64,000 nt of DNA. It comes from Physcomitrium patens. Taxonomy: Eukaryota; Streptophyta; Bryopsida; Funariales; Funariaceae. Both the position numbers and the translations under genes were made by a program. Positions 18,297 through 52,326 of the stretch are shown here, one piece after another. Where the stretch lies: the NCBI RefSeq assembly GCF_000002425.4, contig NC_037258.1, positions 3,773,003-3,837,002 of the forward strand, in the 5' to 3' direction. A model generated the notes under the pieces. That model did no database searches, had not been told where the DNA came from, and saw only the letters and a list, made by a program, of their open reading frames with translations. Every line of letters starts with the position of its first letter. Position 1 is the first letter of the stretch.

Positions 18297-18823
18297 TGTT
18301 ACTTAGGTAATATGAATAAATAGAAGTAAGTAGAAGTAGATTGATTTCATAATACCTTCTAAAAAAGCTTCTTAGAAGCTTTTTAGATGTTGTTTTGACT
18401 TTACATATGTTTGTAGTTGATTGATAGGTTAGAAACTTGGTCAACAAGCTAACTACATGCCATATGTATTGATAACTTATAAAACAAGCTAATTATATAT
18501 TGTCCATATAGAAAACTTACCTTATAAGTCAAGATACATGTCATACAAAGTCAACACATTTTTGGAGGTCCTATAAAACATCACTATATAGATTTTAAAT
18601 AGATAGTATATATAGAGGTAAGAAAGAAGTCTTCTTCACTCTTTTCAATTCTTTTCTTATTTCTTATTTAGTTTCAAAAGTCTCTAGTTTTCTTATCTTT
18701 TGGCAATAGCCATTCTATATATATATTTTTTTAATATATATGCTTTTTTGTTTCTATTTTTTCATATTTCTTTAGAAGAGTCTCACTTATTTATTTGCTT
18801 TCATTAAGTTCTTGTCCTTGACA
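18297..18823 (+). repeat. 5' LTR of A'
   Basis: Aligns along its length with the LTRs of element A, with heavy C-to-T and G-to-A change. It starts near TGTTAC and ends TTGACA. The TATA box TATATATA is at 18607-18614; the predicted transcript start at 18638-18650 (ACTCTTTTCAATT) pairs with the 13 nt directly after the LTR, 18824-18836, at 12 of 13 positions. Confidence 0.8.
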
Positions 18824-19531
18824 AATTGACAAGAGTGTACCTATAATATTAGAGCTTTATCTTCTCTTGATTAAGAGTAGATTATCTCTTTCTCTTGATA
18901 AGACATAAGTATATTAGAAGTTGTAGATTACCCTCTTCTAAACTAATATTATTCTTAGTATTTTCTTTATTTTTAAGTCCTCTCTTCTACTTGTCTTGAG
19001 CAATATTAGAAACTTTTTTTTTCTAAGTATTATTATAGTAGAGCTTCTTAAAATAAAGAATACAATAGCTCAAATCTAAGAGTATTGAGGGAATTGATAC
19101 TTACAATGTATCAACTTAGTTTATTGCTACTAGGAACAATAAAAATGGCAAGAAGTAAAGATACAGATAAAGTTGGAGCTGCTTCAATATCTACACCAAA
19201 TCACATCCCTTTTTCTATAACAAAATATCTTTCTAATATTAGAAAGCCTAGAGTTATCTTATCTAAGAAGTTTGATGGCACAAGATAGAAATTTTGAAGA
19301 TTTATCAATCAAATATAATTTGTGATTGAACTTCAATTCCAAAACTATCCAGCACTAGGATTAGAAGTTAGATTCATTGCTATACTTCTTTCAAGTTTGA
19401 TATTATCATGTTTTTTATCTTTTCTTTCACTACTTGATCCAATATTGAATAATCTAGAGGTTTTTTTTTGGCATAGTTTTGATTTATGTATGAAAAATAT
19501 GATGTAATTTGTATTACAACCAATAAGATTT
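18824..19531 (+). pseudogene. A' leader and N-terminal gag fragment
   Basis: Begins with the candidate self-priming site, then a leader and a gag start similar to that of element A (for example the ITKYLSNIRKPRVILSKKFD region at about 19,222-19,279). It is broken by stops and cut at 19531, where element A inserted between GATTT duplications. Confidence 0.75.
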
Positions 19532-20062
19532 TGTCACGGCCATAATCATGTAAGCTAATAATTACATAAAAAGTAGATAAAAGTAAGTTAATTCTATAAT
19601 ATTTAATATAGAAGCTTCCTAGAAACTTTCTAGATGCTGCTTTGACTTCATAGGTGTCTTTAATTGACTTTTTGGATTAGAAACGTGGTCAACAAGTTGG
19701 CCATGTGCCACACATGTTGTTAGCTTGAAGATCAAGCTAATTATGTGGCCCACACGTAGAAAAACTTGCCTTGTAAGTGAAAGCATGTGTCCTACAAAGT
19801 CAACACATATTGGAGGTCCTATAGAACGTCGCCACGTAGCCCCTAGTTAGATAGTATATATAGAGATAAGAGTGAAGGCTTCTTCACTCTTGTCAACTCC
19901 TTTCTTGCTTCTAGTCCAGGTTCAAGAGTCTTTAGTTTCTTGTCTTGTGGCAATAGCCATTCCTGTTTCCTTTTAATATACCTACTTGTTTATATTTTGA
20001 CTTATTATATCGAGATAGCCTTTTTGTGTATATTTTCTCTCATCGAGTCTTTGTCCTTGACA
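19532..20062 (+). repeat. 5' LTR of element A
   Basis: 531 bp, TGTCACGG...TTGACA. It differs from the 3' LTR by about ten substitutions and lacks about 20 bp of the GTAGAAGTAAG-type repeat near its start. The promoter lies in the second half. Confidence 0.93.
19855..19896 (+). promoter_or_regulatory. LTR promoter: TATA box and predicted transcript start
   Basis: TATATATA at 19855-19862. The sequence 31 nt downstream, ACTCTTGTCAA (19886-19896), lies where plant transcription normally starts. Between them is a hairpin (AAGAGTGAAG / CTTCACTCTT). The start sequence is exactly complementary to 20065-20075 just after the LTR. TATA and complementarity are seen directly; the start site is predicted from spacing. 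Confidence 0.65.
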
Positions 20063-20094
20063 GATTGACAAGAGTACACTTACAATATCAGAGC
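20063..20094 (+). other. Candidate self-priming site and relic tRNA primer site
   Basis: Two nucleotides after the LTR, TTGACAAGAGT (20065-20075) is the exact reverse complement of the predicted first 11 nt of the transcript. Further on, TATCAGAGC (20086-20094) matches the core of the usual initiator-Met tRNA site TGGTATCAGAGC, but the essential TGG is replaced and the site is displaced about 20 nt from the LTR. Family-wide conservation of the first motif suggests it is the functional primer site; this is inference. Confidence 0.6.
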
Positions 20095-20273
20095 TTTGTT
20101 TTTCTTGAGTGAGAGTGGATTACCCCTTTCTCTTGATAAGACATAAGCGTATTAGAAGTTTGCAGATTACCCACTTCTAAAGTGATATTGTTCTTAGTAT
20201 CTTCTTTGTTATCAAGTCTTTCTTTTCTTTTGTCTTGAGCAGTATCAAACAATTTTTTTTTCTTAGTGTCATT

Positions 20274-21278
20274 ATGGCAGAGCTTGTTGAAATGAAGAGT
20301 GCAATGGCACAAATGCAAGAGCAAATGAGGGAGTTAATGCTTGCGATGCATCAACTCAATTCACCAACACATGAAAGAACAAGAATAGCAGAAAGTGGGG
20401 ATATAGAGATGATCGGAGCTGCTTCAACATCTACAACAAATCACGTTCCTTCTCCAATTGTACAACACCCTATAAGCACTAGAGAACCAAGAATTGCCTT
20501 ACCCGAGAAATTTGATGGTACGAGATCTAAGTTTCGAGGGTTTATCAATTAAGTACAATTGGCAATTGAACTTCAACCGCAAAGCTATCCAACTCCAGGA
20601 TCACAAGTCAGGTTTATTGGCACTCTACTTTCTGGTTCTGCATTGTCGTGGTTTTCGTCTTTTCTTGAACAACGAAATCCAATATTGGACAATTTGGAAG
20701 CTTTTTTGGCAGAGTTTCGATCTATGTATGGTGAACACGATGCAACTCGTGTTGCAACAAATAAGATCCGAATTCTGCGACAAAGAAATCGCTCAGTAAC
20801 AGTATATGCTTCACAATTTTGACAACTTGCAATTGACATCAAGTGGGATGATGCTGCATTCATCAATCAATTTCTTTATGGATTGCAATACGAAGTAAAG
20901 AAATTGATGCTCAACTTACCTGATCCTCAAACTTTGAGTCAAGCAATCGATTTTGCGGTAAAATGTGATAATCGACTTTTTGAATTTCGATCTGAGAATC
21001 ATTCACGGGAACCTCAACGTTATTACTCAATGGCAACATCAACATCTTTGCCAAACGTACATTCGGAAGTAGAAGACATGCAAATTGACGCGGTATGTTT
21101 TAAACCCCTAACTGAGCAAGAAAAGATTCATCGTCGTCAAGAAGGATTATGTTTATATTGCGGAGAACCTAAGCACACTGCTCAACATTGTCCAAAGAAG
21201 CGACGCAACTATAAAATGAGGGGTACGACGGTCAAAGAAAACAACATGTCAGAAAACGGATTCGTCCAGCTACAATAG
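20274..21278 (+). pseudogene. gag of element A, two in-frame stops
   Basis: Starts at ATG 20274 (MAELVEMKSAMAQMQ) after a 211-nt leader and stays in one frame to TAG at 21276-21278. An N-terminal coiled-coil-like stretch is followed by a Retrotrans_gag-type capsid region (GTLLSGSALSWFSSFLEQ, about 20,620-20,670) and a CX2CX4HX4C zinc knuckle at 21150-21191 (CLYCGEPKHTAQHC). Stops at 20550-20552 (TAA) and 20820-20822 (TGA) interrupt it; the related element C still has Arg at the second position, so that stop is a C-to-T change of CGA. The protein would form the particle and package RNA. pol follows 5 nt later in another frame. Confidence 0.85.
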
Positions 21279-21283
21279 GGACC

Positions 21284-24200
21284 ATGCAGCTGGAACCTTG
21301 TACAATTCCTAATGAAGGTCCTATCCTCTCCTCAAAACCCTCTCCTTGTTTTATAATAGACTTATATTTAGGACCTAAGAATTACAAAGCCTCTACTTTA
21401 TTAGATTCAGGAGCCTCAGCATGTTTTTTAGATGAACAATTTGTTAAAAGTCGTAAAATACCTTTTGTACAAAAACCTAAACCAGTACATGTAGAAGTCA
21501 TAGATGGTCGTCCCTTGTCTTTTGGAGATGTCACTCATGAAACTCATCCTATAAAAGTAACAATAGACGGTCATGATAGCTACATAGCTTTTAACATAAT
21601 TAAATCTCTGTCCAATCCAGTTACTTTAGGTTTATCCTGGCTAGAAAAATATAACCCTCGAATAGATTGGAATTCGTGTAAACTTGACTTTTCCCAGAGC
21701 GTTATTAATAGTTTTACTAACCAAGTAAAAAATTATAAGTCTAGTATAGTAAAACCCGTACTGATAGGTGCAAAAGCATTTATACACGCAGCAAAAGAAG
21801 GATCAAGTTTTGCTATTTATACTGCACCTATTTCTGAAAACGTAAAGACTTCAAGTGGCATTCCAAGTCAATATCAAGAATATGAAGACGTTTTTGAGAA
21901 AAAGAATGCAGATATTCTTCCTGAGCATCGCCCATATGATTGTTCAATTGACCTCAAGGAAGGAACTCAGCCACCATTTGGACCAATTTACAGTTTATCG
22001 CAAGATGAGATGGCTGAACTTAAGACATATATTGACGAGAATTTAGCAAAGAATTTCATACGCCATTCAAAATCTCCAGCAGGAGCTCCAATTCTATTCG
22101 TAAAGAAAAAAGATGGATCTTTACGAATGTGTATTGATTATCGACGACTCAACAAGATCACAATCAAGAACAGATATCCATTACCTTTGATATCAGGACT
22201 CCTTGACCAGTTGAATCAAGCTAAGATCTATACAAAAATAGATCTAAGAGGAGCATATAATCTAGTACGGATCAAAGAAGGAGATGAATGAAAGACTGCG
22301 TTTCGAAGCAGGTATGGACATTTCGAATATAATGTCATGCCCTTTGGACTCACGAATGCACCAGCTGCTTTTCAACATCTCATGAATGATGTATTTCGTG
22401 AATTCTTAGACAATTTTGTCGTCTGCTATCTAGACAATATCCTGATCTATTCTAAGAACGTCGAAGAACATGAAATACATGTTTGTCAAGTATTACAAAA
22501 ACTTAGAGATGCAGGATTGTACGCCAAGATGGAAAAGTGTGTATTTCACACTACTCAAGTTGACTTTTTAGGATACATCATTTCAAATGATGGTCTCATG
22601 ATGGATTCTAAGAAAGTCCAAACAATCATAGATTGGAAGATTCCAAGGACAGTAAAAGATGTCCAATGTTTCTTGGGATTTACCAATTACTATCGGATCT
22701 TCATCAAAGATTTCTCACGAGTTGCAGCTCCACTTACACACTTGACTAGTAAAGATAAATTTCAATGGAATCAAGAAGCGGAAGCAGCATTTGAAGCCTT
22801 GAAGACATCGTTTGTCTCTGCACCAGTCTTATATCGTATTGACTTTTCCAAGGCATTTTTTATAGAAACAGATGCATCAGATTTTGCCTTGGGTGCAGTT
22901 TTATCACAAATGGGAACAGATGACAAACTTCATCCGATAGCTTTTCATTCAAGAAAATTCTCAGCAGCCGAGATCAATTATGAGATCCACGATAAAGAAC
23001 TTCTTGCGATCGTGGATTCCTTTCAAGAATGGCGTCATTATCTAGAAGGCGCTTCTAGTCCAATCACTGTGTATACAGATCACAAGAACCTCGAGTATTT
23101 CATGTCAGCATGTGTATTAAATCGTTGTCAAGCTCGTTGGAGTATGTCTTTTTCAAGATTCGAGTTCATTATCACTTATCGGCCAGGAAAACAACAAGGT
23201 TTGTCCGATGCCCTATCTAGACATTCTTATTTTGCACTAAAAGAAGGAGATGCAGCTTTTGAGCAACAAAGAACGGTCCTCTTGAAACCGGAGCAATTTC
23301 ATCTTCGAGCAATGAAATCAACATTGACTGTTGATTCAACTTTTCTTAAGCAAATCCAGTCCAGTATGTCCTCAGACCCTCTTGTTCATGATATCGAGAA
23401 TAATTCTTCCAAGTCTCATGATCCTTCTAAGTTCGAGTTTAAGAATAATCTATTATATTTTGAAGGACGCCTATATGTTCCAGAAGGAGAAGCACGTTTA
23501 CGTGTTCTTCAAGCACGTCATGACTTTTCAGCAGCAGGGCACTTTGGATATAATAAGACTTTGGAACTCATATTAAGAGATTTTTGGTGGCCTTAAATGT
23601 GGAAGTCAGTCAAAGACTTTGTACAATCATGTGATATTTGTTCAAGATCAAAAATTCCTCATCATCGACCTTACGGACTTCTTCAGCCATTACCTATACC
23701 AGAACAACCATGGTCTTTTGTTTCTATGGATTTCATCACAGATCTTCCAAGCTCAAGATCTTATGATTCTATATTTGTGATAGTAGATCGTTTCACCAAG
23801 ATGGCACATTTTGTGCCATGTACAAAATCTATCACAGGTGAAGAAACAGCTAAGCTTTTCATTGATAATATCTATCGCTATCATGGATTATCTAAAGATA
23901 TCATATCGGATAGGGGAACTCAATTTGTGTCAAGATTTTAGAAGACCCTTTTTAAGATTTTAAAAGTGGACATAAAGCTATCTTCGGCTTTCCATCCTCA
24001 AACTAATGGACAAACAGAGCGCGTAAACCAAGTCTTGGAGCAGTATTTAAGGTGTACTATCAACTACCAACAAGATGATTGGATAACCCTTCTGCCATTG
24101 GCAGAGTTTGCTTATAATAATACGGTACATTCTTCCACGCAACAAACACCTTTCTTTGCCAATTATGGCTATCATCCACGACTTGATACTTTTGGTTTTT

Positions 24201-24772
24201 TAAAAGTTGATAATCCTGCAGCAGAAGATATGGCAAATCGGTTGTCAGAGTTACATGCAATAATGAAGACACAATTGAAGGAAGCTCAAGAACGACAAAA
24301 GATAAACGCAGATCTATATCGTAAGGAGCAACCACAACTCAACGTGGGTGATAAGGTATGGCTACTTCGTCGCAATATCAAGACTACTCGACCTTGTGAC
24401 AAGTTGGACTATCGTAGGCTTGGCCCCTTTTCTATTTCTGAACAGATCAACCCAGTTGCATATCGGTTATATCTACCGGAGTCAATGAAGATCCATCCTG
24501 TATTCCACATGTCTCTTCTTGAACCATATAAGACAGTGGATATACAAGGAAGAAGACAAATGCCACTGCCTCCTATAGAAGTAGATAATAATGAAGAATT
24601 TGAAGTGGAAGAGATATTAGACTCAAGGCGGCGCCGAAATAAGCTGGAATATCTTGTTCATTGGCGCGGATATGATATTAGTGAATGCACATGGGAGCCA
24701 TCCAGGAATCTAGCAAATGCATCAGCTAAAGTCAAAGTTTTTCATCAACGACATCCATCGAAATCAAGATGA
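21284..24772 (+). pseudogene. pol of element A: protease, RT, RNase H, integrase, chromodomain
   Basis: One frame from ATG 21284 to TGA 24770-24772. Aspartic protease DSGA is at 21404-21415. Reverse transcriptase spans about 22,000-22,600. Its active-site box reads YLDN (22427-22438) instead of YLDD, removing a catalytic Asp. RNase H is at about 22,860-23,120 (IETDASDF, YTDHKNLE). Integrase has a zinc finger ending in CDIC near 23,630, catalytic D at 23729, D at 23909 and E at 24017. The C-terminal chromodomain is at about 24,585-24,745 (EVEEILDSR, YLVHWRGY, CTWEP) with F/W/W cage positions, expected to bind methylated histone H3 and steer insertion to heterochromatin. Three stops break it: TGA 22289-22291 (copy A' has TGG here), TAA 23594-23596, TAG 23939-23941. 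Confidence 0.93.
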
Positions 24773-24866
24773 AAATCTCTCTTATAAAAGAGACAAGATT
24801 GAGGCAAGATAACATTCAATTTCCTATCCTTGTTTGTAACTTCTTTGCATTTGTGACACTAATTAG

Positions 24867-25289
24867 ATGGAGAGCCAATAACCAGTGGATTCAACTCAAG
24901 AACCTTCGTTTGCTGACCTGCCGGATGAGACATTACGATTGTCACAACCTTTAAGACGACGCAATCGAGATGAAGATCTTCAAGAACGACATGTTCTTCG
25001 TCGAATAGATGGTGAGATACAATGCGTTTGGTATCACGATTTGGGAAGGGACTCCCGATGTTTGGTGATTTTGCTAGAGGTAGGAACAACTCCTGATGGT
25101 GTTCCAAATATTCTATTCAAAGGAAGTTACGAAGGCCTCAACAATGATCAAATAACTGGGTGGTCTTCCCGCCCTGGTATGGGACACTATTGATGGTTGA
25201 GAGGCCCTATCAATCATCTTCGAAGAGAACAGAGATCAGAGTATGTGGCGAATATAATTCGTCGCATCATAGATTTCCTCAACATATGA
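24867..25289 (+). pseudogene. Extra reading frame between pol and 3' LTR, unknown function
   Basis: An ATG at 24867 opens a frame of about 140 codons to TGA 25287-25289, 95 nt after pol and just before the polypurine tract. It is interrupted by TAA at 24879-24881 and TGA at 25191-25193, each one transition away from a sense codon, the same kind of damage as in gag-pol. The product would be hydrophilic and charged (RRRNRDEDLQERHVLRRIDG), then mixed (CVWYHDLGRDSRCLVILLEV), with no signal peptide or membrane segment, so not envelope-like. I do not recognise it. It could instead be a chance frame in the 3' untranslated region, though its length and composition resemble coding DNA. Confidence 0.5.
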
Positions 25290-25316
25290 TGACTGCTCCT
25301 CGTGGAACTCGTCTCT

Positions 25317-25327
25317 AGAAGGGGGGG
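25317..25327 (+). other. Polypurine tract of element A
   Basis: AGAAGGGGGGG, separated from the 3' LTR by TAA. This is the plus-strand priming site for reverse transcription and marks the end of the internal region. Confidence 0.85.
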
Positions 25328-25330
25328 TAA

Positions 25331-25881
25331 TGTCACAGCCATAATCATGTAAGCTAATAATTACATATAGAAATAGGTAGAAGTAAGTAAAAGTAGATAA
25401 AAGTAAGTTAATTCTATAATATTTAATATAGAAGCTTCCTAGAAACTTTCTAGACGCTGCTTTGACTTCATAGGTGTCTTTAATTGACTTTTTGGATTAG
25501 AAACGTGGTCAACAAGTTGGCCATGTGCCACACATGTTGTTAGCTTGAAGATCAAGCTAACTATGTGGCCCACACGTAGAAAAACTTGCCTTGTAAGTCA
25601 AGGCATGTGTCCTACAAAATCAACACATATTGGAGGTCCTATAGAACGTCGCCACGTAGCCCCTAGTTAGATAGTATATATAGAGATAAGAGTGAAGGCT
25701 TCTTCACTCTTGTCAACTCCTTTCTTGCTTCTAGTCCAGGTTCAAGAGTCTTTAGTTTCTTGTCTTGTGGCAATAGCCATTCCAGTTTCCTTTTAATATA
25801 CCTACTTGTTTATATTTGACTTATTATATTGAGATAGCCTTTTTTTGTATATTTTCCCTCATCGAGTCTTTGTCCTTGACA
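25331..25881 (+). repeat. 3' LTR of element A
   Basis: 551 bp, TGTCACAG...TTGACA, followed directly by the GATTT target duplicate and the continuation of A'. It includes about 20 bp near its start that the 5' LTR lacks. Confidence 0.93.
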
Positions 25882-28006
25882 GATTTATATCTTACGACAA
25901 GACAATTGATGAATGACATCATACACTTTACAATTTTGATAACTAGCAATTGATATCAAGTGGAATGATGCTCTTCTTATTAATTGATTTCTATATAGAT
26001 TACAATATGAGGTAAAAAAATTGATGGTCAACTTGATCTTTAGACATTGAGTCAAGCAATTGACTTTGTTGTATAGTATAATAACTGGCTTTTTCAATTT
26101 CAATCTAAGAATTTCACAAGAAAACTTCTATATTATTATAATTCAATGATAATACTAAAGACCTCTCAATCTAAATATTTTGAAAGTAGAAGACATGCAA
26201 ATTCATACAACACCTTTCAAACCTCTTATTGAATAAGAAAAGATTCATCATTGTCAAAAAAGACTGTATTTATATTATGGAGAAGCTAAACACACTACTC
26301 AACATTATCCAAAGAAATGATGCAATTATAAAATAAGGAGTATGATTGTCAAAAATGAAAAAATGTCAAAAATCAAATTTGTCTAGCTATAATAGGGACC
26401 ATGTAGTTGAAATCTTATGCAAATGAAGATCTTATCTTCTCTTTAGAACCCTCTCCTTATTTTTACAATAGATGTACATTTAGGACATAATAATCACAAA
26501 GCCTATGTCTTGATAGATTTGGAAGCCTCAACTTGTTTTTTAAATGAAGAATTTGTTAAAAACCATAGAATACTGTTAATACAAAAACTAAAATCATACA
26601 TATAGAAGTCATAGATAGCCATTTCTTATCTTTTGGAGTTATTAATCACAAATTTTTTCCTATAGATGTAACAATAAATAGTCATAATAGTTGCATAATT
26701 TTTAATATAATTAAATTTATCTCTAATCTGATTATTTTAGATTTATCATGGCTAAAAAAGTATAATCTTTTGATAGATTGAATTTCTCATAAACTTGAAT
26801 TTTTTTAGAATCTTATTAATTTTTTTTTGGAAAGCCATGAGTTTAGTGTAGCCAAACTTGTACTTATAGGTGCAAAAGCTTTCTTGCATGCTATAAAAAA
26901 AAGATCAACTTTTATTATTTATTCCACAGTCATTTTTAATGATGGAAAGACTTTAAGTAATATTCTAAGTTAATATCAAGATTTATAAGATATTTTTAAA
27001 AAAAAGAATGTAGATATTTTCCTAGAGTATTGTCCATTTGATTGCTCAATTGATCTTAAACAGGGAAGTCAACCACCATTTGGTCCATTCTACAGTTTAT
27101 CACAAAATGAGTTGACTAAACTTAAGAAATACATTAATGAGAACTTGGCTAAGAATTTCATATGCCATTCAAAATCTCTTACATGAGCTCCTATCTTATT
27201 TGTGAAGAAAAAAGATGAATCATGACAAATATGCATAGATTATTAATGACTCAACAAGATTACCATCAAGAATATATATCCTTTATCTTTGATATCTAGA
27301 CTTCTTAATCTATTAAATGAAGCTAAGATCTATATAAAAATAGATCTACAAAGAGCATACAACTTTGTTTGCATTAAAAAAGGAGATGAATGGAAGACCA
27401 CATTTCAAACAAGGTATGGATACTTTGAATATAATGTCATGCCTTTTTGACTCACGAATACACCAACTACTTTTTAATATCTTATAAATGATAATTTTGT
27501 GAATTTTTAGATGATTTTTTTGTCTATTATTTAAATAAAATTTTAATCTATTTTAAAAACATAAAAAAAAATAAAATTCATATTCATTATATGTTACAAA
27601 AACTTAGAAATGTAAGTTTGTATACCAAGTTGAAAAAGTGTGTATTCTACACTTTTCAAGTTGACTTCCTAAGTTATATCATTTCCAACGAAGTACATAT
27701 GATGGATTTGAAGATGGTTCAAATTATTATACATTGAAAGATTCTAAAAATAATAAAAGATGTGTAATACTTTTTGGACTTTACCAATTACTATAAAATC
27801 TTCATTAAGATTTTTTTTCAAATTGAGGCTTTTTTTTACACGTCTTATATGAAAAGACAAACTTAATTGAAGTAAAGAAGTTGAAGCATCTTTTGAAACC
27901 TTAAAGTTGGCATTTATTTCTGTACTAATTTTATATTATATTGAATTTTTTAAGATATTTTTTTATAAAAATAGATGTATTAGAATTTACTATGGATGTT
28001 ATTTTG
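25882..28006 (+). pseudogene. A' gag-pol remnant (gag to RNase H)
   Basis: Resumes gag of the older copy exactly where 19531 broke off. Recognisable pieces are the decayed zinc-knuckle region (near 26,255-26,320), the protease region (near 26,510-26,560), reverse transcriptase (about 27,050-27,800, including an undamaged GDEWKT segment near 27,385-27,402) and the start of RNase H. The active-site box is decayed to YLNK. Stops and small indels are frequent. It is cut at 28006 by a solo LTR. Confidence 0.8.
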
Positions 28007-28548
28007 TGTCAAAGACAAGAACTTGATGAAAAAGAAATTTAGACAAGTAAGCCTTCACTCAAAGAAAGGTAACAAAATATAAATAAACAAGTATGTATAT
28101 GGAAAGAAAAACTAGAATGGCTATTGCCAAAAGATAAGAAAACTAGAGATCCTTGAAACTAGATTAGAAGAAAGAAAAGAATTGACAAGAGTGAAGAAGG
28201 CTTCACTCTTGTCTCTATATATACTATCTAACTAGGGGCTACATGGCGACATTCTATAGGACCTCTAATATGTGTTGATTTTGTAGGACACATGCCAAGG
28301 CAAGTTTTTCTACGTGTGGGCCACATAGTTAGCTTGGTCTTCAAGCTAACAACATGTGTGGCACATGGCCAACTTTTTGACCACATTTCTAATCCAAAAA
28401 GTCAATTAAAGACACCTATGAAGTCAAAGCAACATCTATGAAGCTTCTAGGAAGCTTCCATATCAAATATTATAGAATTAACTTACTTTTACCTATTTTT
28501 ACTTACTTCTACCTATTTGTATATGTAATTATGAATATGTCCATGACA
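28007..28548 (-). repeat. Solo LTR of family A, reversed
   Basis: A 542-bp copy of the family A LTR in reverse orientation, flanked by a perfect TTTTG target duplication (28002-28006 and 28549-28553) inside RNase H of A'. There is no internal region, so it is a solo LTR left by recombination. It keeps the TATA box (28216-28223 on the complement), the predicted transcript start ACTCTTGTCAATT (28192-28180) 31 nt away, and a perfect 12-bp hairpin with a 4-nt loop between them (28185-28212). Confidence 0.92.
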
Positions 28549-38221: not shown

Positions 38222-38878
38222 TCATTGATTTGGATAGTTGTCCTTGCCTTGACATGGATACAGTACTGAATCTTCACTTTGGGGCTCCTTTTCTTTCTTC
38301 TTGATTACTTCATGGATAAATCTTGCTGTCACATAGTCCATTGTAAGATCTTTTAGTTTAATGGACTCCAATGCCACAATAAGGTAGTTATAGGATTTGG
38401 GAAGGCTCATCAACAAGGTCATAACAATATCACTTTCTTCTAAAGGCTTGTCAATAATTGCTAGTTGATTTGTAAGAGCCTTTATCTTATTGACATGAGC
38501 CATGAGGTCTTCACCTTCTTCCATCTTGCAAGTGAAGAACTTCTTTCTTGTATAGATGATGTTAGATAAGTTCTTACTCTCATAGATGTTGCAAAGAGTC
38601 TTCCATGCTTCCACTAGTCCTTTGCAAGAAATAATGTGGAAGAAGTTGGCTTCATCCACATTGATTGCAATCAATCCAAAAACATTCTTTTCATGATGTT
38701 TGAACTCCTTCTTTTCCTTCATATTAGCATCTATGCTTGGAGCCTCTTCACTTTCATCTACAATATCCCAAAGATCCAAAAATGCCAACAAAAGTTCCAT
38801 TTTTATCTTTCAATGGTAGAAATTCTCACCTCTAAACTTCTCAATAACTCTCAATCCTTCACCTTCACTTGAAGCCAT
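38222..38878 (-). pseudogene. gag of copia H
   Basis: ATG at 38878-38876 (MASSEGEGLRVIEKFRGENF). A TGA where copia gags carry Trp (FYHWK-type motif) interrupts it near 38,810; the frame then stays open to about 38,222. It contains the copia gag capsid pattern (AWKTLCNIYESKN, KMEEGEDLMAHVNKIKAL, MTLLMSLPKSYN) typical of the UBN2/retrotran_gag families. This is the best-preserved part of the element. Confidence 0.88.
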
Positions 38879-44791: not shown

Positions 44792-44792
44792 A

Positions 44793-45237
44793 TGAAATAA
44801 GACCAGACTATCTCAAAAATCCAAGATCCTTCTATTCTACAGTAATATAAAATCTCATTACAAAATAAGACAAAATAGACTAGAATAGAACTGAATAAAA
44901 CAATATAAAATTGGATATGAAAGACAATTGAGTACATGGAAACATAATAGAATAGAACTAAAAAATAGGATGCAAAACCAAACTTTACTAAGAAAAAGGG
45001 TCTGAAGCCATACTTGACTAACTACTCCAAAAGGTCTTAGACAGTCTTATTTATACCTTGTTCTACTACCTTGGACTTTCTTGAATATTCTCTGATAGGC
45101 CCTACTTACATAACTATCCTAAATTCTTTTAAAATATTCTATGATAGATTCTATTTTATTCACTAATCTAATTCTAATTTTAGAAACTTTTATGGTTCTA
45201 ACTATCTATATAATTATCTTTTCTATACCTTGTTACA
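44793..45237 (-). repeat. 5' LTR of element B
   Basis: About 445 bp. On the minus strand it starts TGTAACAAGG and ends TTATTTCA. It matches 33252-33750 with moderate divergence and several small deletions. Confidence 0.87.
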
Positions 45238-45718
45238 GCCTTCCATGTTCTTAAGTTCAATTATACCAATTCTTTGAAGATCACCTTTTATCACAACCAA
45301 CCCCAAGAGCCTAGTTGTTGCTTCTAGCCATTCATCAATAAATAATCAACTACAATCTGCCTAATTATTCTCTTAGACTTCCAACTAATTGCCACCACGT
45401 TATGAATTGGAAGTTATAGATCCACCTTCTTTGTTCATTTAATCTACCATAGTTTTTTGTTTGATCATACCAATAATCTTGGCTTTTTATTATTTATTAT
45501 ATATTATTTTTAAATAAAATACTTTTTATTTTTAATTCTCTCAAAGCAACAATCCATTATATAACAATATTAAAAATTAAATGTTATTGGACATTTGATC
45601 CTTTTACTACTAACTAACACAAAAAAACACCTCTTAAGTATTATTCACAAGCTATTAATGCCAACATTGTTGAACACTTAGGCTTGATCTTCTTTAGTAC
45701 TTCGTATTAAAGATATAC
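45238..45718. other. Spacer between elements B and C
   Basis: AT-rich DNA with no recognised gene or element. Confidence 0.4.
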
Positions 45719-46083
45719 TGTTCAAAAGACTAAACAAGAAGTTGAACAAAAGCATTTCATCAAGAAAGCTAACATGAAATTAATTAAACTAGATAATTAT
45801 AAGATCAATACCAAGTGAAGTGATCTAAAACTCTAAGAGACATATTGTTGAGACTAGAGATCTCCTTAGCATCAATCCTAATATATATTATGTATTAGGA
45901 AGCTTCTTGAGAAGTTCCTATATTGCTTGGAGATGAAGCAATATTAAGATCTTTTTTGAACAACTTCTTTAATCTTCTCAAAACTTTCTAAAATCTACTA
46001 GAATATTTTGAGAACCTTCAAGAATCTTTTATTAGAATCTTTTAAGAATATTTCTAAAATCTTCTTGTTAGATGTTTGTAACA
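45719..46083 (-). repeat. 3' LTR of element C
   Basis: About 365 bp, collinear with the two parts of 51383-52326. On the minus strand it starts TGTTACAAAC, has a TATATATT box (45887-45880) and the predicted transcript start TAGTCTCAACAA (45856-45845), 31 nt apart. Confidence 0.8.
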
Positions 46084-46089
46084 TCATCC

Positions 46090-49000
46090 CATCTTCTAAC
46101 TTGGAATTTTATAAAGAGTATCAATTTTACATTTATAAAAATTTAAAGATTTATTAGATACTAAATACAATATATGTTGCCTATTGATCTCTACTCAAAG
46201 AATAGACTGATTTACTTATATAGCGATAAATGCTACTTTTATCTACTCATGAAAGATATATTCTTTGGACTTGGTTAGCATTAAGGGCTTCAAATCATCT
46301 ATAAAAAGTGACTTTAGCTCCATTGGATTTTACTATATCAACTTGTAATAGAATGATCAAAATTCAAGTATCATCTTAGAAGTTTTTATATTTGAATTAA
46401 TTATAGTATGGACGTTTCTTGCCTTGAGAAGATCCAATTTTATCATGAAGATGATTTTACAAAGGTTGCAAGAATTAGGACAATTGATCTAGTAGCTATG
46501 ATAAAAAAAGCTTTAGCTCTTATTCTATTTGAGATTCATGATGTAAAAACTCTCTAATTACTTTTTAATTTGATATATTGGATCATAAACTAGATACACT
46601 AAACTTTGAGGTTGTTATGAGCAATACTTGCTCTCTTCTTTATATTAAACATCATAGTAGAAACTTCATAAAGAAATTATCTTAAAATAGATTTAAGTTT
46701 TTAAAAATAGTATCAATTAAATTCTAATATCTTTTATGATATATTAATTTAAAAAAAAATTATTTTCTATGTGTGCTCATTGATATCTTAGTCATGCCAA
46801 TGAATAAAGTACTCCAACTTACCTCTTCTTTACCACAAATCAAGGAAATTTTTTACCTTATATCCCATATAATTACCTATTTTAATGCAAGGAAATGATG
46901 GTTGTATTCTTTCTAGAATAATTTATTTTATATAAGTTTTTAAGAGAGAAATAAAAAAGACTAGATGAACCTTCATAAATGTGGGTGGTTCCAATTAATA
47001 AGCCATTAAATTGATTTTTTTATATAATACAAAATGGCCTTAATCTTCTATAAACTATCTTATTATAAGGCCAATTTATCTTGATATTTCATCAAAAAAT
47101 CCATACTTTATCTCCAACTTAAAAAGTAAGAGATTTAAAAAAAAAATTATTTGAAGGTATTGTGTAAGAATCTTAAACTACTTGTAAATGGAACTTCAAG
47201 TCGTTTAGAATTGTGACAATTGATTTTAAGATTTTTAGCTATTAGATTTTTATTCTTTGATATATCTATCAAATCAAGCTTTAGATGATAATCATAATTA
47301 GTATAAAATGGTGTTTGTTGTGTTTAAGCATGAAAAGTATCATTATAAGCACACTTCACTTTAAATAAATAGAAGGTTCAATCATTTTATTAATAATTGA
47401 TAGTACATAGAAAGTACTGCTCTAAAACTTAATTATTTTTTTATTTAATTATTGATTTAAAAATAGAAAGTAAAAGAAAGTTTGATATCTATTTTAAATA
47501 TTTCAAAAAATAATTTCTAAACTTTGATATAAATTAAGGTCTTTGATCAAAAATGATGTCATCACATAAGCCATGATATCAATATATATTATTAAGAAAG
47601 AGCCTTGTTATTTCTTCTTCAAAAATTATTTTTTTACATTGGACAAAATATGCCATGTTTATAAGTCAATCCACAATAACATAAATAGCATCAAATATAG
47701 CTGATGGACGTAGATTAGTCATGAAGTCCATTGATACTAAAGACCATAGTTGCTTTGGAATTGGTGGTGGCTATAGAAGTCTATAAAGACAATGTCATGA
47801 ATTCTTAGATCTTAAACATATATCACACAAGAGGATAAAATCTTTCATGGCCTTCCATATTTGAGGCCACCAAAAATTTCAAGAAATGAGTTTTAATATT
47901 TTATTAAATTTAAAATATCCTATAATTAAAAAATCATAATAAGATTGAAAAATAAGATGTTGTACTAGTCTTTTGGGAATATATAAACAATCTTCAAAAT
48001 ACAAAATATCTTCTACAAACTTGAAATTTTTGTTGTTAAGATACAATTTCTTATTACAAACTAATGGGTTGTTAGTTGATATTGTGCAGATTTGTTCAAG
48101 AAAACTTAAGTCAACACGTGTAATCATAGAAATAGTACAAAGACAACATTATTATGGTTTCAAGAAAATTACATATTGTTAATCAAATATTACTTCTTTG
48201 GCCTTTAGAGCAAGATATGATCTCTTTGATAAATCTTCTAAAAGTCTCTACTTCTTCTTTAGTCAATATATAATCATAAAATTAAAATAAAATAATAACA
48301 TATTTTAATAAATTAATCGGTAATTTAAAATTCAAGCTAATATAAAATAATCAAAGTTTTTATGATTTATATACACATAGGATGTATAGTATCTTCTACA
48401 TATAACATCATTCTTAAAAAGTATCTAAAATTGCAAGAAGCTCTTTATCATAAATCTCATAATTGATTTTCATAGTTAAAAACTTTGTAGAATAGAATGC
48501 AACTAGGTGGAATTTTCTATTCTTTTCTATATGTGATTGTATAGCTTTTAATGCAAAGTCAAAATCAATAGTCTCCAAATAAAAAGCTTTTATAAAATTT
48601 GAATGCAATAAGATTAAAGCTATAATAAAAGTTACCTTTAAATCTTAAAAAGTCCTTTGTGCTTGAAGTTCCTATTTCAATTTGTCTTTAGATGCCAATC
48701 AAATGAGAGGAGCAATAATTTGGAAATAATTCTTAATAAATATCTAATAAAAATTACCAAATTTAAGAAAATATTATACAATCCATATTGTCTTTAGAGT
48801 TGTTTATTCTATTATAGCTTGAACTTTCTTTGGATCCATCAATAGGCCTTCATTGGATATAGTATATCCAAAAAATTCTACTTTTGATTAATAGAATACT
48901 CATTTTTTTAATTTGGCATATAATTTTGCATCTTATAACTTTTACAAGATTAATTTCACATATTTTTTATGCTCTTCAAGAATCTTAGAGTAGATTAAGG

Positions 49001-51095
49001 TATCATTAAGATAGCACACAATAATTTTATCTAAAAATTCTAAAAAAATATCATTCATCAAATTTTAGAATATAGTTGGCACATTTGTTAATCCAAAAGA
49101 TATGAAATTATATTCAAAATGTCCGTACTTTGTCCAAAATATTGTCTTTCATTCATCTCTTCCTTTAATCCATATCAAATTATATGTTCTACAAAGCTCT
49201 ACTTAAGTGTAGATCTTTGCTTAATCAAGTTGCTTCAAAAGCCTTAATATCAACAATAATGGATAACAATTCTTCAACATTATTTTATTGAGGCTACAAT
49301 AATCAATACACGTTTGCAAAGATCTATCTTTTTTTTCACAAAAAATATTGATGTACTTGTTGGAAATTTAAAATATCAAATAAAATTCTTTATAAGATTT
49401 TTTTTGATATAATTCTTTAATGTTGAAAGCTGGTTCTATGATAGATTATAAATTGGGCCAAATAGTAGTTGAGTTCTTTCTAAAAGATTGATAGCTCAAT
49501 CATATGATCAATGCTTTGGCAATATATCAACATTCTTTTTTTTAAAGACATCTTGAAATTTGTTATATTGCTATAGAATAGCTACTAGTAAGCACACTTC
49601 TTTATAAACTAGGATTACATAAATAAAAAATGGCATTTTTTTCTTAGTTGTCATCATAAAAATATTTGCTCTAAGAAATAAAGACTTTGATGTTGATGAC
49701 TTCTTGATAGGTTTTATCTAAAGAATTTTTGTAGAAAATTCAACCTTATAAAATATCAAATTTACAAATAGGTTTTATCTTTTTAATCAAAAAAGTCCTA
49801 AAATGATAGGATTCAATAGAATTCTAATAATATTAAATTTTATTTTGCTACTATAGTCTTCAAATGATATTTCTAGTGCTATGGTCTTATAAATAATATT
49901 GCTTGAAGATAAAAGTTGACTATCTATTATTTCTACATGTACAAGTTTTGACTTTTGTATTGAAATAATTTTATAAAGTTTGATGAACTTTTCATCTAAA
50001 AAATAATTAGATCCTCTTGAATCTAATAAGGCATTTGTTTGAGGTTTTTATAGATAAAGAAATAATTTTATAATAAAACAACAAGCAGATTAAGCAAAGA
50101 AAGATGGATCTTAATAAACTTGAGGTGTTGGAATGTTTAGCCACACTATTCTTATTGTGGCTGAGCCTCTTTATTTTTTTTTAAATAATTTCACTCTTAA
50201 TCCTAGTTGTATATTATTTTTTTGGACAATTTTAAGATTTGTGGCTTCTTTCATGACAATAAAAGCATAGATCTTATTCAAATTGATACTTTTTCTATTC
50301 TAATATAAGAGGTTTGAATCATATTGTATCAATTTTCATATCCTTGGCTCTGGAGGTTGGAAGTAATATATTTGTTAAAGCACCAAAGTAAATTTTTTTA
50401 ATGCATTGCTTTGTTAAAGTCCACAAGTATTAGTCTTGATGGCATTGAAATAATTGATTATTGTGCTTCATAGCTTAGTTGATAGCTTCATTGAGTATTT
50501 GAAGATCATATAATAATAATAATAGGTCTTTGACATCTTCTCTTAATTTCCAATAGAATTGGCTCATAAAAACTTCTTCATTCCAATTGATATCACAAAT
50601 CAATTGCCTAAAATCAGATGTATAAATTGATGCAAAGTGTGACCTTTGATATAATGAACAAATCTTTATTGTCACTCATTGAGCCTTGTTATGTTCTCTA
50701 AATTCTTTTGCAAATACATCTAAAAAAACTTCAAAGTTGTTCAAGATTAGAGATTTTTTTTCAGATAAAAGAGCAAATCAAGCTAAGGCTTGTCTTGTGA
50801 GTAAGATTCCAATTAAATCAACTTGTGATTCTTTTTTTGGATAATGCCTAGGTTATAGAAAAATTATCAATTAAATTTAATTAACAAATCCTTGAAACTT
50901 GGAGCATGTATTATAAAACTTTTTGAAAGACTAATTTAAGGCTCTTTATATTGATGAATAAGTGAATTTTCTTATTGAGGTACAAGTACCACCATATTCT
51001 TGAATGTAGAAGCTTGAGAAAGTAGTTGCATCATAGATTGAATTATTCTAGGTCTTACATTACAGATTGAATTCCTCTAGATCTTGCATCACCAT

Positions 51096-51100
<5 letters not shown>
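46090..51100 (-). pseudogene. Element C gag-pol
   Basis: Minus-strand pieces line up with element A: gag 50,675-50,475 (FRQLICDINWNEE, matching the region broken by a stop in A), reverse transcriptase with the box YLND (49013-49002), RNase H 48,608-48,414 (FALKAIQSHI; NYEIYDKELLAILDTF), and the integrase N-terminus 48,127-47,879 (YFEDCLYIPKRLVQHLI). Integrase continues to about 46,800 with many stops. The chromodomain was not confirmed. The reverse transcriptase lost the first Asp of YLDD, whereas A lost the second. Confidence 0.8.

Positions 51101-51128
<28 letters not shown>
51098..51128. repeat. Poly-T run of 31
   Basis: 31 consecutive T residues (A on the strand of element C), near the gag N-terminus of element C. 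Confidence 0.9.
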
Positions 51129-51133
<5 letters not shown>

Positions 51134-51363
51134 TTCTATGAGATTAAGTATTGAGTGTATTAATAATAATATCTAACTTAAATTTAGGAGATTCAACCAT
51201 ATTAACATCTTGACCTTGAGCCATCCTAAAAGATAAGAAATTTTTAAACAATACTAATTTAAAAGAGGATACTTTGCAATCTTTAAACCACTCAAATAAC
51301 TTCAAGAAGAAGAATAATCCATTCTCTATGAAAAAAGACCAAGCTCTAGTATTGATAAGAAGG

Positions 51364-51375
51364 TAGTCTTAACAA
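51364..51375 (-). other. Candidate self-priming site of element C
   Basis: On the minus strand TTGTTAAGACTA lies about 7 nt inside the LTR and is complementary to the predicted transcript start TAGTCTCAACAA at 11 of 12 positions; the one mismatch is a transition. A relic tRNA site (CAATACTAGAGCTTGG) follows at about 51,342-51,326. Confidence 0.55.
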
Positions 51376-51382
51376 ACTATCA

Positions 51383-52326
51383 TGTATATTCTATATAAAA
51401 AAAACAAAAAAGAAGTTGAACAAAAGAGTTTCAACAAAAAAAATAGCAAGAACTTAATTAAAGTAGATGAGTATAAATCAACATCAAGAAAGATGAGCTA
51501 AAGCTCCAAAAAATTTGTTGTCAAGAGTAAAGATCTCTTCAACGTTAACTCTAATATATACTAGATATTATAAAGCTTCTCAAGAAGTTTCTATATTGCT
51601 ATCAATGACATGAATCTTAAAATAAAAAATCTCAATACACTCTTATGTCATTCAAAAAGACTAAAAAATCACTCAAAGATGATAATATATTAAATTAAAA
51701 TGGCTACTACTAAAGATAAGAAGATTAAAAAGTCTTAAAATAAGATTAAAGAATAGAAAGGCGTTGATAAGAATAAAGGAGGTTTCACTCTTGCTACTAT
51801 ATATATTCTCTAATTAAGAGCCACATGACAATATTCTATAGGACCTCCAATATGTATTGACTTTCTTAGATACATGACTTAATTGAAAGGCAAGTTATTC
51901 ATATATATTCTACAAGCTTTTAATGCATAAAGTCAAATTTTTAGCCTACAAAATTAAGTACAAATACGTGTAAAGTCAAAACAACATCTATGAAGCTTCT
52001 AGAAAGTTTCTTTAGAAGATATTATGAAATTAATTTACTTTTAATTATTTCTACTTAATCATATAAATAATTATTGGAGTAAATATGTATATCTTTGACA
52101 ATTGCTTAAAGATGAAGCAAATCTAGGAAGCTTCTAATACAACTTTTTTAATTTATTTAGAAGTTTTAAAAATATATTAGAATATCATAAAAACCTTCTT
52201 AAAAAATTTAGAATATTCTAAAAAATATTTTTAAAATCTTCCATTAAAATATTTTAAAATTATTTAAAAATTTAATAGAATATTTTTAAATTTTTTTCAA
52301 AATTTTCTTGTTGGATGTTTCAAACA
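51383..52326 (-). repeat. 5' LTR of element C, interrupted
   Basis: 51383-51599 and 52101-52326 together match 45719-46083; a solo LTR of family A lies between them. Confidence 0.78.
51600..52100 (-). repeat. Second solo LTR of family A
   Basis: A 501-bp decayed copy of the family A LTR, same orientation as 28007-28548, flanked by perfect ATTGC duplicates (51595-51599 and 52101-52105). It ends TTTGACA; its other end has changed from TGTCAA to TATCAA. Confidence 0.85.

Follow-up and report, generated by a model that had tools for sequence, protein, structure and literature searches.

We found that element A, a chromovirus (Ty3/gypsy) in the 64-kb window (the whole stretch of DNA analysed here), carries at the predicted 5′ end of its transcript an 11-nt motif, ACTCTTGTCAA, whose exact reverse complement lies 2 nt past its 5′ LTR. 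By sequence, the case consists of the pairing, its position and a compensated change, with no tRNA-type TGG close to the end of the LTR. The earlier note had read the motif as a Tf1-like self-primer. Pairing, position and the compensated change between two families support that reading, and we consider it very likely that the A family primes its own reverse transcription in the manner of Tf1.

In the mechanism that we propose, transcription would start at ACTCTTGTCAA (a start placed by its distance from the TATA box), and the first 11 nt of the RNA would fold back onto the site 2 nt past the 5′ LTR. The element's RNase H, whose domain was found by Pfam, would then cut after nucleotide 11, and the freed 11-mer would prime minus-strand DNA. 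A repeat across the U3/R border, at the RNA 3′ end only, may fold the 3′ primer copy away and leave only the 5′ copy to pair with the site. The self-priming part extends an existing prediction; the U3/R hairpin and its joint change with the primer are the new part of this work.

Predicted primer motif and post-LTR site in the window

Element A lies within an older relative, A′, and the window also holds a more decayed relative, B, two solo LTRs and a Copia element (Table 1). The two LTRs of A diverge at 10 of 530 aligned positions. The RT frame of A is cut by the stop at 22291, and its gag piece matched no Pfam family. GC content is about 25% in the older copies (25887-28000 and 45708-52326) versus 38% in A; by eye and uncounted, C-to-T and G-to-A make up many of the differences in the older copies, a pattern known from repeats that are methylated and silenced. 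Neither Rfam nor tRNA scans matched anything in the window.

Table 1. Positions of the elements, LTRs and predicted priming features in the window
Feature	Positions	Strand	Remarks
A′ (older relative, host of the A insertion)	left part to 19531, right part from 25882		
A′ LTR	18324-18823	+	extent matching A (first bases not fixed); motif 18638-18648
A′ predicted primer site AATTGACAAGAGT	18824-18836	+	directly adjoins A′ LTR
Element A, chromovirus (Ty3/gypsy), full-length but broken	19532-25881	+	two LTRs; TSD GATTT on both flanks
A 5′ LTR	19532-20062	+	TG..CA ends; TSD GATTT; matches 3′ LTR
TATA box TATATATA of A 5′ LTR	19855-19862	+	
Upstream (U3) arm of inverted repeat	19865-19877	+	13/13 RNA pairs (12 Watson-Crick, 1 G-U) with 19882-19894
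Downstream arm of inverted repeat	19882-19894	+	includes first 9 nt of primer motif
Predicted RNA 5′ end/self-primer ACTCTTGTCAA	19886-19896	+	exact reverse complement of 20065-20075
LTR-end hairpin UUUGUC-CUU-GACAGA	20050-20064	+	minimum-energy fold; predicted to abut primer helix
Predicted self-primer binding site TTGACAAGAGT	20065-20075	+	2 nt past A 5′ LTR
A protease and first part of RT	21215-22291	+	Pfam RVP_2, RVT_1; stop ends frame
A second part of RT, RNase H, integrase H2C2	22292-23596	+	Pfam; RT tree
A integrase C-terminal part, SH3_Tf2-1, chromodomain	23942-24772	+	Pfam; PDB alignments
A 3′ LTR	25331-25881	+	second motif copy 25706-25716; inverted repeat 25685-25714
Solo LTR S, within A′	28007-28548	-	TSD TTTTG on both flanks; motif 28182-28192
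Copia gag	38222-38809		
Copia LTR	44792-45237	-	ordinary-looking site TGGTATCAGAG directly after
B (more decayed relative, L001-type)	45708-52326	-	
B 3′ LTR	45708-46083	-	motif AGTCTCAACAA 45845-45855
B predicted primer site TTGTTAAGACT	51365-51375	-	2 nt past B LTR
B 5′ LTR, interrupted by solo LTR C	51378-52326	-	TSD ATACT/ATACG, 4/5; motif 51518-51528
Solo LTR C (A-like), inside B LTR	51600-52100	-	TSD GCAAT on both flanks; motif 51764-51774

The motif start and the first TATA-box T (19855) are 31 nt apart, and both this spacing and the exact complement 2 nt past the LTR were borne out as the earlier note had described them. The 13-mers of A′ likewise pair at 12 of 13 positions, as claimed. 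Solo LTR S does carry the claimed complement of the A′ site, with one correction: the exact match is 14 nt long, not 13.

Within the A 5′ LTR, the longest exact complement to the first 22 nt past the LTR is 11 nt. With position ignored, a complement of that length arose in 6 of 2000 dinucleotide shuffles of this LTR and, in the same test, in 10 of 2000 for the A 3′ LTR; the decayed copies fail the test (A′ 808, B5 135 and B3 982 of 2000). Scanning with an 11-mer, we found no place that matched as well as the predicted start in any of five LTR/site pairs (A5, A′, B5, B3 and L001, a relative of A on a contig outside the window), B5 being represented by a 225-nt part of its LTR and L001 also by a partial LTR. 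When a 13-mer was scanned over a longer B5 stretch including the inserted LTR C, the result was a three-way tie. Pairing in the decayed elements falls short of 11/11, at 10/11 in A′ and 9/11 and 10/11 in B. In L001 the motif AGTCTCGACAA and the site TTGTCGAGACT, also 2 nt past the LTR, pair at 11/11. Thus both A and L001 have a complement that begins 0-5 bp past the LTR and extends over 10 bp or more, which is the published mark of a self-primer in the accessible text of Neumann et al. (PMC6317226).

We then folded the predicted 5′ RNA. The primer helix formed with a mean probability of 0.96 over 25 distinct A sequences, chosen for an intact motif and site, and of 0.70 (range 0.01-0.94) over 21 distinct L001-type sequences folded in isolation. 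Against self-priming, the whole R-U5-site RNA of A was no stabler than its shuffles (z = -1.07; 35 of 200 as good), and in the A′ fold the 5′ end paired with the downstream leader instead of the site.

Co-variation among copies in the host genome

The earlier note had proposed checking whether the motif and the post-LTR site change together across copies of the family. We searched the host genome (470,438,890 bases in 101 contigs) with A and L001 as queries. The A query gave 4077 first-look candidates, of which the best 40 were scored, and all 40 places were read, one of them being the window itself. The L001 query gave 3073 candidates; the best 40 were scored, with 77 matches, and 38 of the 40 main places were read. 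Beside the main match, L001-type copies (L019, for example) hold 37 extra matches that repeat the query from about position 211, and the stretch after the primer site seems, from these alignments, to be in tandem duplicate in most of them.

The primer pairing was complete (11/11) in 37 of 40 A copies and 37 of 38 L001-type copies, that is, in 74 of the 78 genome copies read. The three A misses have one changed base each, one of them giving G-U, and in the single L001-type miss the aligned place reads differently (7/11). The distance from the first T of the TATA box to the motif was also constant, at 31 nt in 40/40 A copies and 32 nt in 38/38 L001-type copies. Mean identity within a family, over pairs of equal length, was 0.989 for A and 0.988 for the L001 type; a value of 0.199 in at least one L001-type pair probably reflects a comparison out of register. 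The copies are close within each family and are the best-scoring matches. These counts show the state of each family, and what provides independent evidence is how the two families differ.

The A and L001 motifs differ at positions 2, 6 and 8, and their sites differ at exactly those three, so that 11/11 pairing is kept; the proposed check thus came out in favour of co-variation, the site following the motif at all three of the 11 positions that differ. When three changes were put into the A site at random, full 11/11 pairing to the L001 motif survived in 4.6e-4 of trials. In a four-row alignment of A, A′, B and L001, 95.5% of the primer-helix cells are paired, versus at most 43% in slid versions, and 3 of the 11 pairs are changed on both sides. 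Column shuffles, a control that treats the four rows as unrelated, reached three two-sided pairs 47 times in 500, and the covariation score 8 times in 500. For comparison, A and L001 have the same base in 129 of the 230 columns aligned. Since the contrast comes from two families only, it provides three compensated positions. The counts include L001 and leave out the other contig loci, L002-L007, because L001 alone of the seven matches the A LTR and leader (E < 1e-3). Two of the loci left out, L005 and L006, carry their own end repeats.

The inverted repeat across the U3/R border and other readings of the pairing

The motif also shares its first 9 nt with an inverted repeat that straddles the U3/R border, in which, counted from the start of the motif, positions -21 to -9 are paired to -4 to +8. 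The repeat recurs in the A 3′ LTR and, on the minus strand, in S (28184-28213). At the RNA level, 39 of the 40 A copies retain the full 13 pairs, as do 35 of the 38 L001-type copies. Predicted hairpin energies are -19.4 kcal/mol in A5 and A3, -20.3 in S and -23.0 in L001, compared with -14.6 (A) and -16.3 (L001) for the primer helix, and within these LTRs (L001 in part) no other 38-nt segment folds as well. The hairpin is weak in the decayed A′, B and C. Furthermore, the compensated positions of the inverted repeat are the three already seen in the primer helix. Its cells are paired at 90.4% in the four-row alignment, with slid versions at no more than 54% and the covariation score in 8 of 500 shuffles, and random arms with five changes kept all pairs at a rate of 6e-5.

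With a transcript start at the motif, the RNA would lack the U3 arm at its 5′ end and have it at its 3′ end. A hairpin confined to the 3′ end, with a predicted stability above that of the primer helix, could therefore hide the 3′ primer copy. We tentatively suggest that this second, competing helix locks the 3′ copy and co-evolves with primer and site as a three-part system that tells the RNA's identical ends apart, a possibility to which we give somewhat less than even weight. It raises a question not posed in the literature covered, namely how a self-primed RNA keeps its primer site off the wrong, 3′ copy, and a literature search of partial coverage, with most subscription journals outside it, returned no U3/R hairpin hiding a 3′ primer copy. 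If the suggestion is true, self-primed elements need a built-in discriminator between 5′ and 3′ ends, which could be sought in Tf1, Tj1 and sushi.

A serious competitor, which we hold to be quite possible if not probable, is that self-priming is real and the U3/R repeat, instead of shielding the 3′ primer copy, serves as a promoter or polyadenylation element. The repeat sits between the TATA box and the predicted start, and retroviral U3/R hairpins can serve polyadenylation. The 13 Watson-Crick pairs found in 36 of 40 A copies would also be expected of a DNA palindrome. Two points speak against this without deciding the matter: in A and L001 the RNA helix is complete at 13 pairs, including a G-U that would be a mismatch in DNA, and the three positions that change in the repeat are those that change in the primer helix.

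Since we infer the start at the motif from its spacing, the RNA might instead begin upstream and carry the hairpin at its 5′ end. However, the upstream arm starts 10-11 nt past the first TATA-box T, nearer than the usual spacing of a TATA-driven start allows, and we regard this arrangement as improbable. We think it very improbable that the complementarity is a by-product, with no priming role, of a promoter palindrome in DNA that serves protein binding or as an initiator. The inverted repeat does share the motif, but a palindrome internal to the LTR leaves unexplained a complementary stretch that lies 2 nt outside the LTR and changes with the motif.

Proposed self-priming by A also differs from what the Copia element of the window displays. 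There the longest LTR complement is 5 nt, and the site TGGTATCAGAG, which we take to be an iMet-type tRNA site, has the tRNA-type TGG. In A, A′, B and L001 alike, the first 33 nt past the LTR contain no TGG. The word TATCAGAGC (20086-20094), which begins at nucleotide 24 past the A LTR, resembles part of an iMet-type primer site and may be a relic or chance; as a candidate primer site it was rejected, the word being lacking in L001 and the TGG missing. Ordinary tRNA-iMet priming from a displaced or worn site is hardly credible: TATCAGAGC has eight bases, TATCAGAG, in common with the Copia site, but the TGG needed for the tRNA CCA end is missing from the first 40 nt past the LTR in A and A′, and the aligned stretch of L001 reads ATATTGGAGTC, which shows that the word lacks conservation, whereas the LTR-proximal pairing is kept in 74 of 78 copies.

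Relatives of A and comparison with known systems

The RT piece of A had 7620 proteins at E < 1e-20 among 7983 candidates, of which the best 120 were listed. A quick RT tree with a midpoint root (119 rows, 11 of them named) put nine named fungal and vertebrate rows on A's side and split off two Tanacetum proteins (support 100, branch 1.42), the rows nearest A lying outside the 11 named. The integrase piece had 6145 proteins, and the best 120 listed include three from the fern Ceratopteris at 52-57% and one from a Kitasatospora record. In the chromodomain of A, alignment to the CDYL chromodomain puts F, W and Y at the positions that we take to form the aromatic cage. Judged by these comparisons, A classes as a Tf1/sushi-type chromovirus, probably of the plant Tcn1-like kind, the Tcn1 placement being drawn from named matches.

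A contig search for relatives of A returned the seven loci L001-L007. L001 is a eukaryotic-looking contig in a cyanobacterial MAG record that has 70% amino-acid identity to A and reaches the LTR border. Scans of viral contigs found no relatives of A, and phage and plasmid collections gave one and three records, respectively, all below 33% identity. A-like genes stand in bacterial records (L001-L003 and P0143: two cyanobacterial MAGs, an alphaproteobacterial MAG and a Kitasatospora protein), where they are probably contamination.

In the host, A is probably RLG1 of Physcomitrium patens, an assignment based on copy number. A host gene search, under a length limit that probably left full-length kinases out, returned 21 proteins, and the one with a name was a Cryptomeria VIK kinase at 35%. 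RLG1 is described in the accessible text as the most abundant family, with a chromodomain, transcribed, polymorphic and recently mobile, and its phylogeny as not clearly that of plants (PMC7466625). Very high copy number and the chromodomain are what A shares with it. If A is RLG1, its host is a tractable moss and the element is transcribed and recently mobile (PMC7466625), so that the mechanism is directly testable.

Among plant elements, the Tcn1 clade resembles A in predicted self-priming and in a caged chromodomain. In the portions available of Neumann et al. (2019), self-priming is predicted for most moss and club-moss Tcn1 chromoviruses, whose chromodomain has the aromatic cage in 95%, and also for TAR Copia elements (PMC6317226). 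The accessible text of Novikova et al. (2010) gives Selaginella SM-Tcn1 as having neither tRNA nor self-priming evidence (PMC2864245). The earlier note had known of no established plant case. This holds for experiment, as our search, again partial and with most subscription journals outside it, found no experimental proof of plant self-priming; it does not hold for prediction, which already existed for Tcn1 and TAR Copia (PMC6317226). In the literature so covered, plant self-priming has been a prediction from complementarity only; the support added here is that two families of the same genome, each read in about 40 copies, differ by compensated changes. The TAR-lineage Copia elements (Houba, Osr-1), for which self-priming has been proposed in plants as we propose it for A, belong to a different superfamily.

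The closest parallel is with Tf1/Tf2 of Schizosaccharomyces pombe and the Tf1/sushi group, as far as the accessible portions of the papers describe them. Tf1 uses its first 11 nt as primer, with an RNase H cut between nucleotides 11 and 12 (PMC7175516), and Tf1/sushi elements have a common three-duplex structure (PMC10085805). Like A, they combine an 11-nt RNA 5′ end (predicted in A) with a complementary site at the 5′-LTR border; they also have a chromodomain integrase, and the RT of A falls on the side of fungal and vertebrate relatives. Of the three-duplex 'pretzel', the central duplex was found in A-type RNA; we also sought the flanking duplexes and, a point against the proposal, recognised none at the matching places. 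A U3/R hairpin covering the 3′ primer copy, as predicted in A, goes unmentioned in the accessible descriptions of Tf1/sushi elements.
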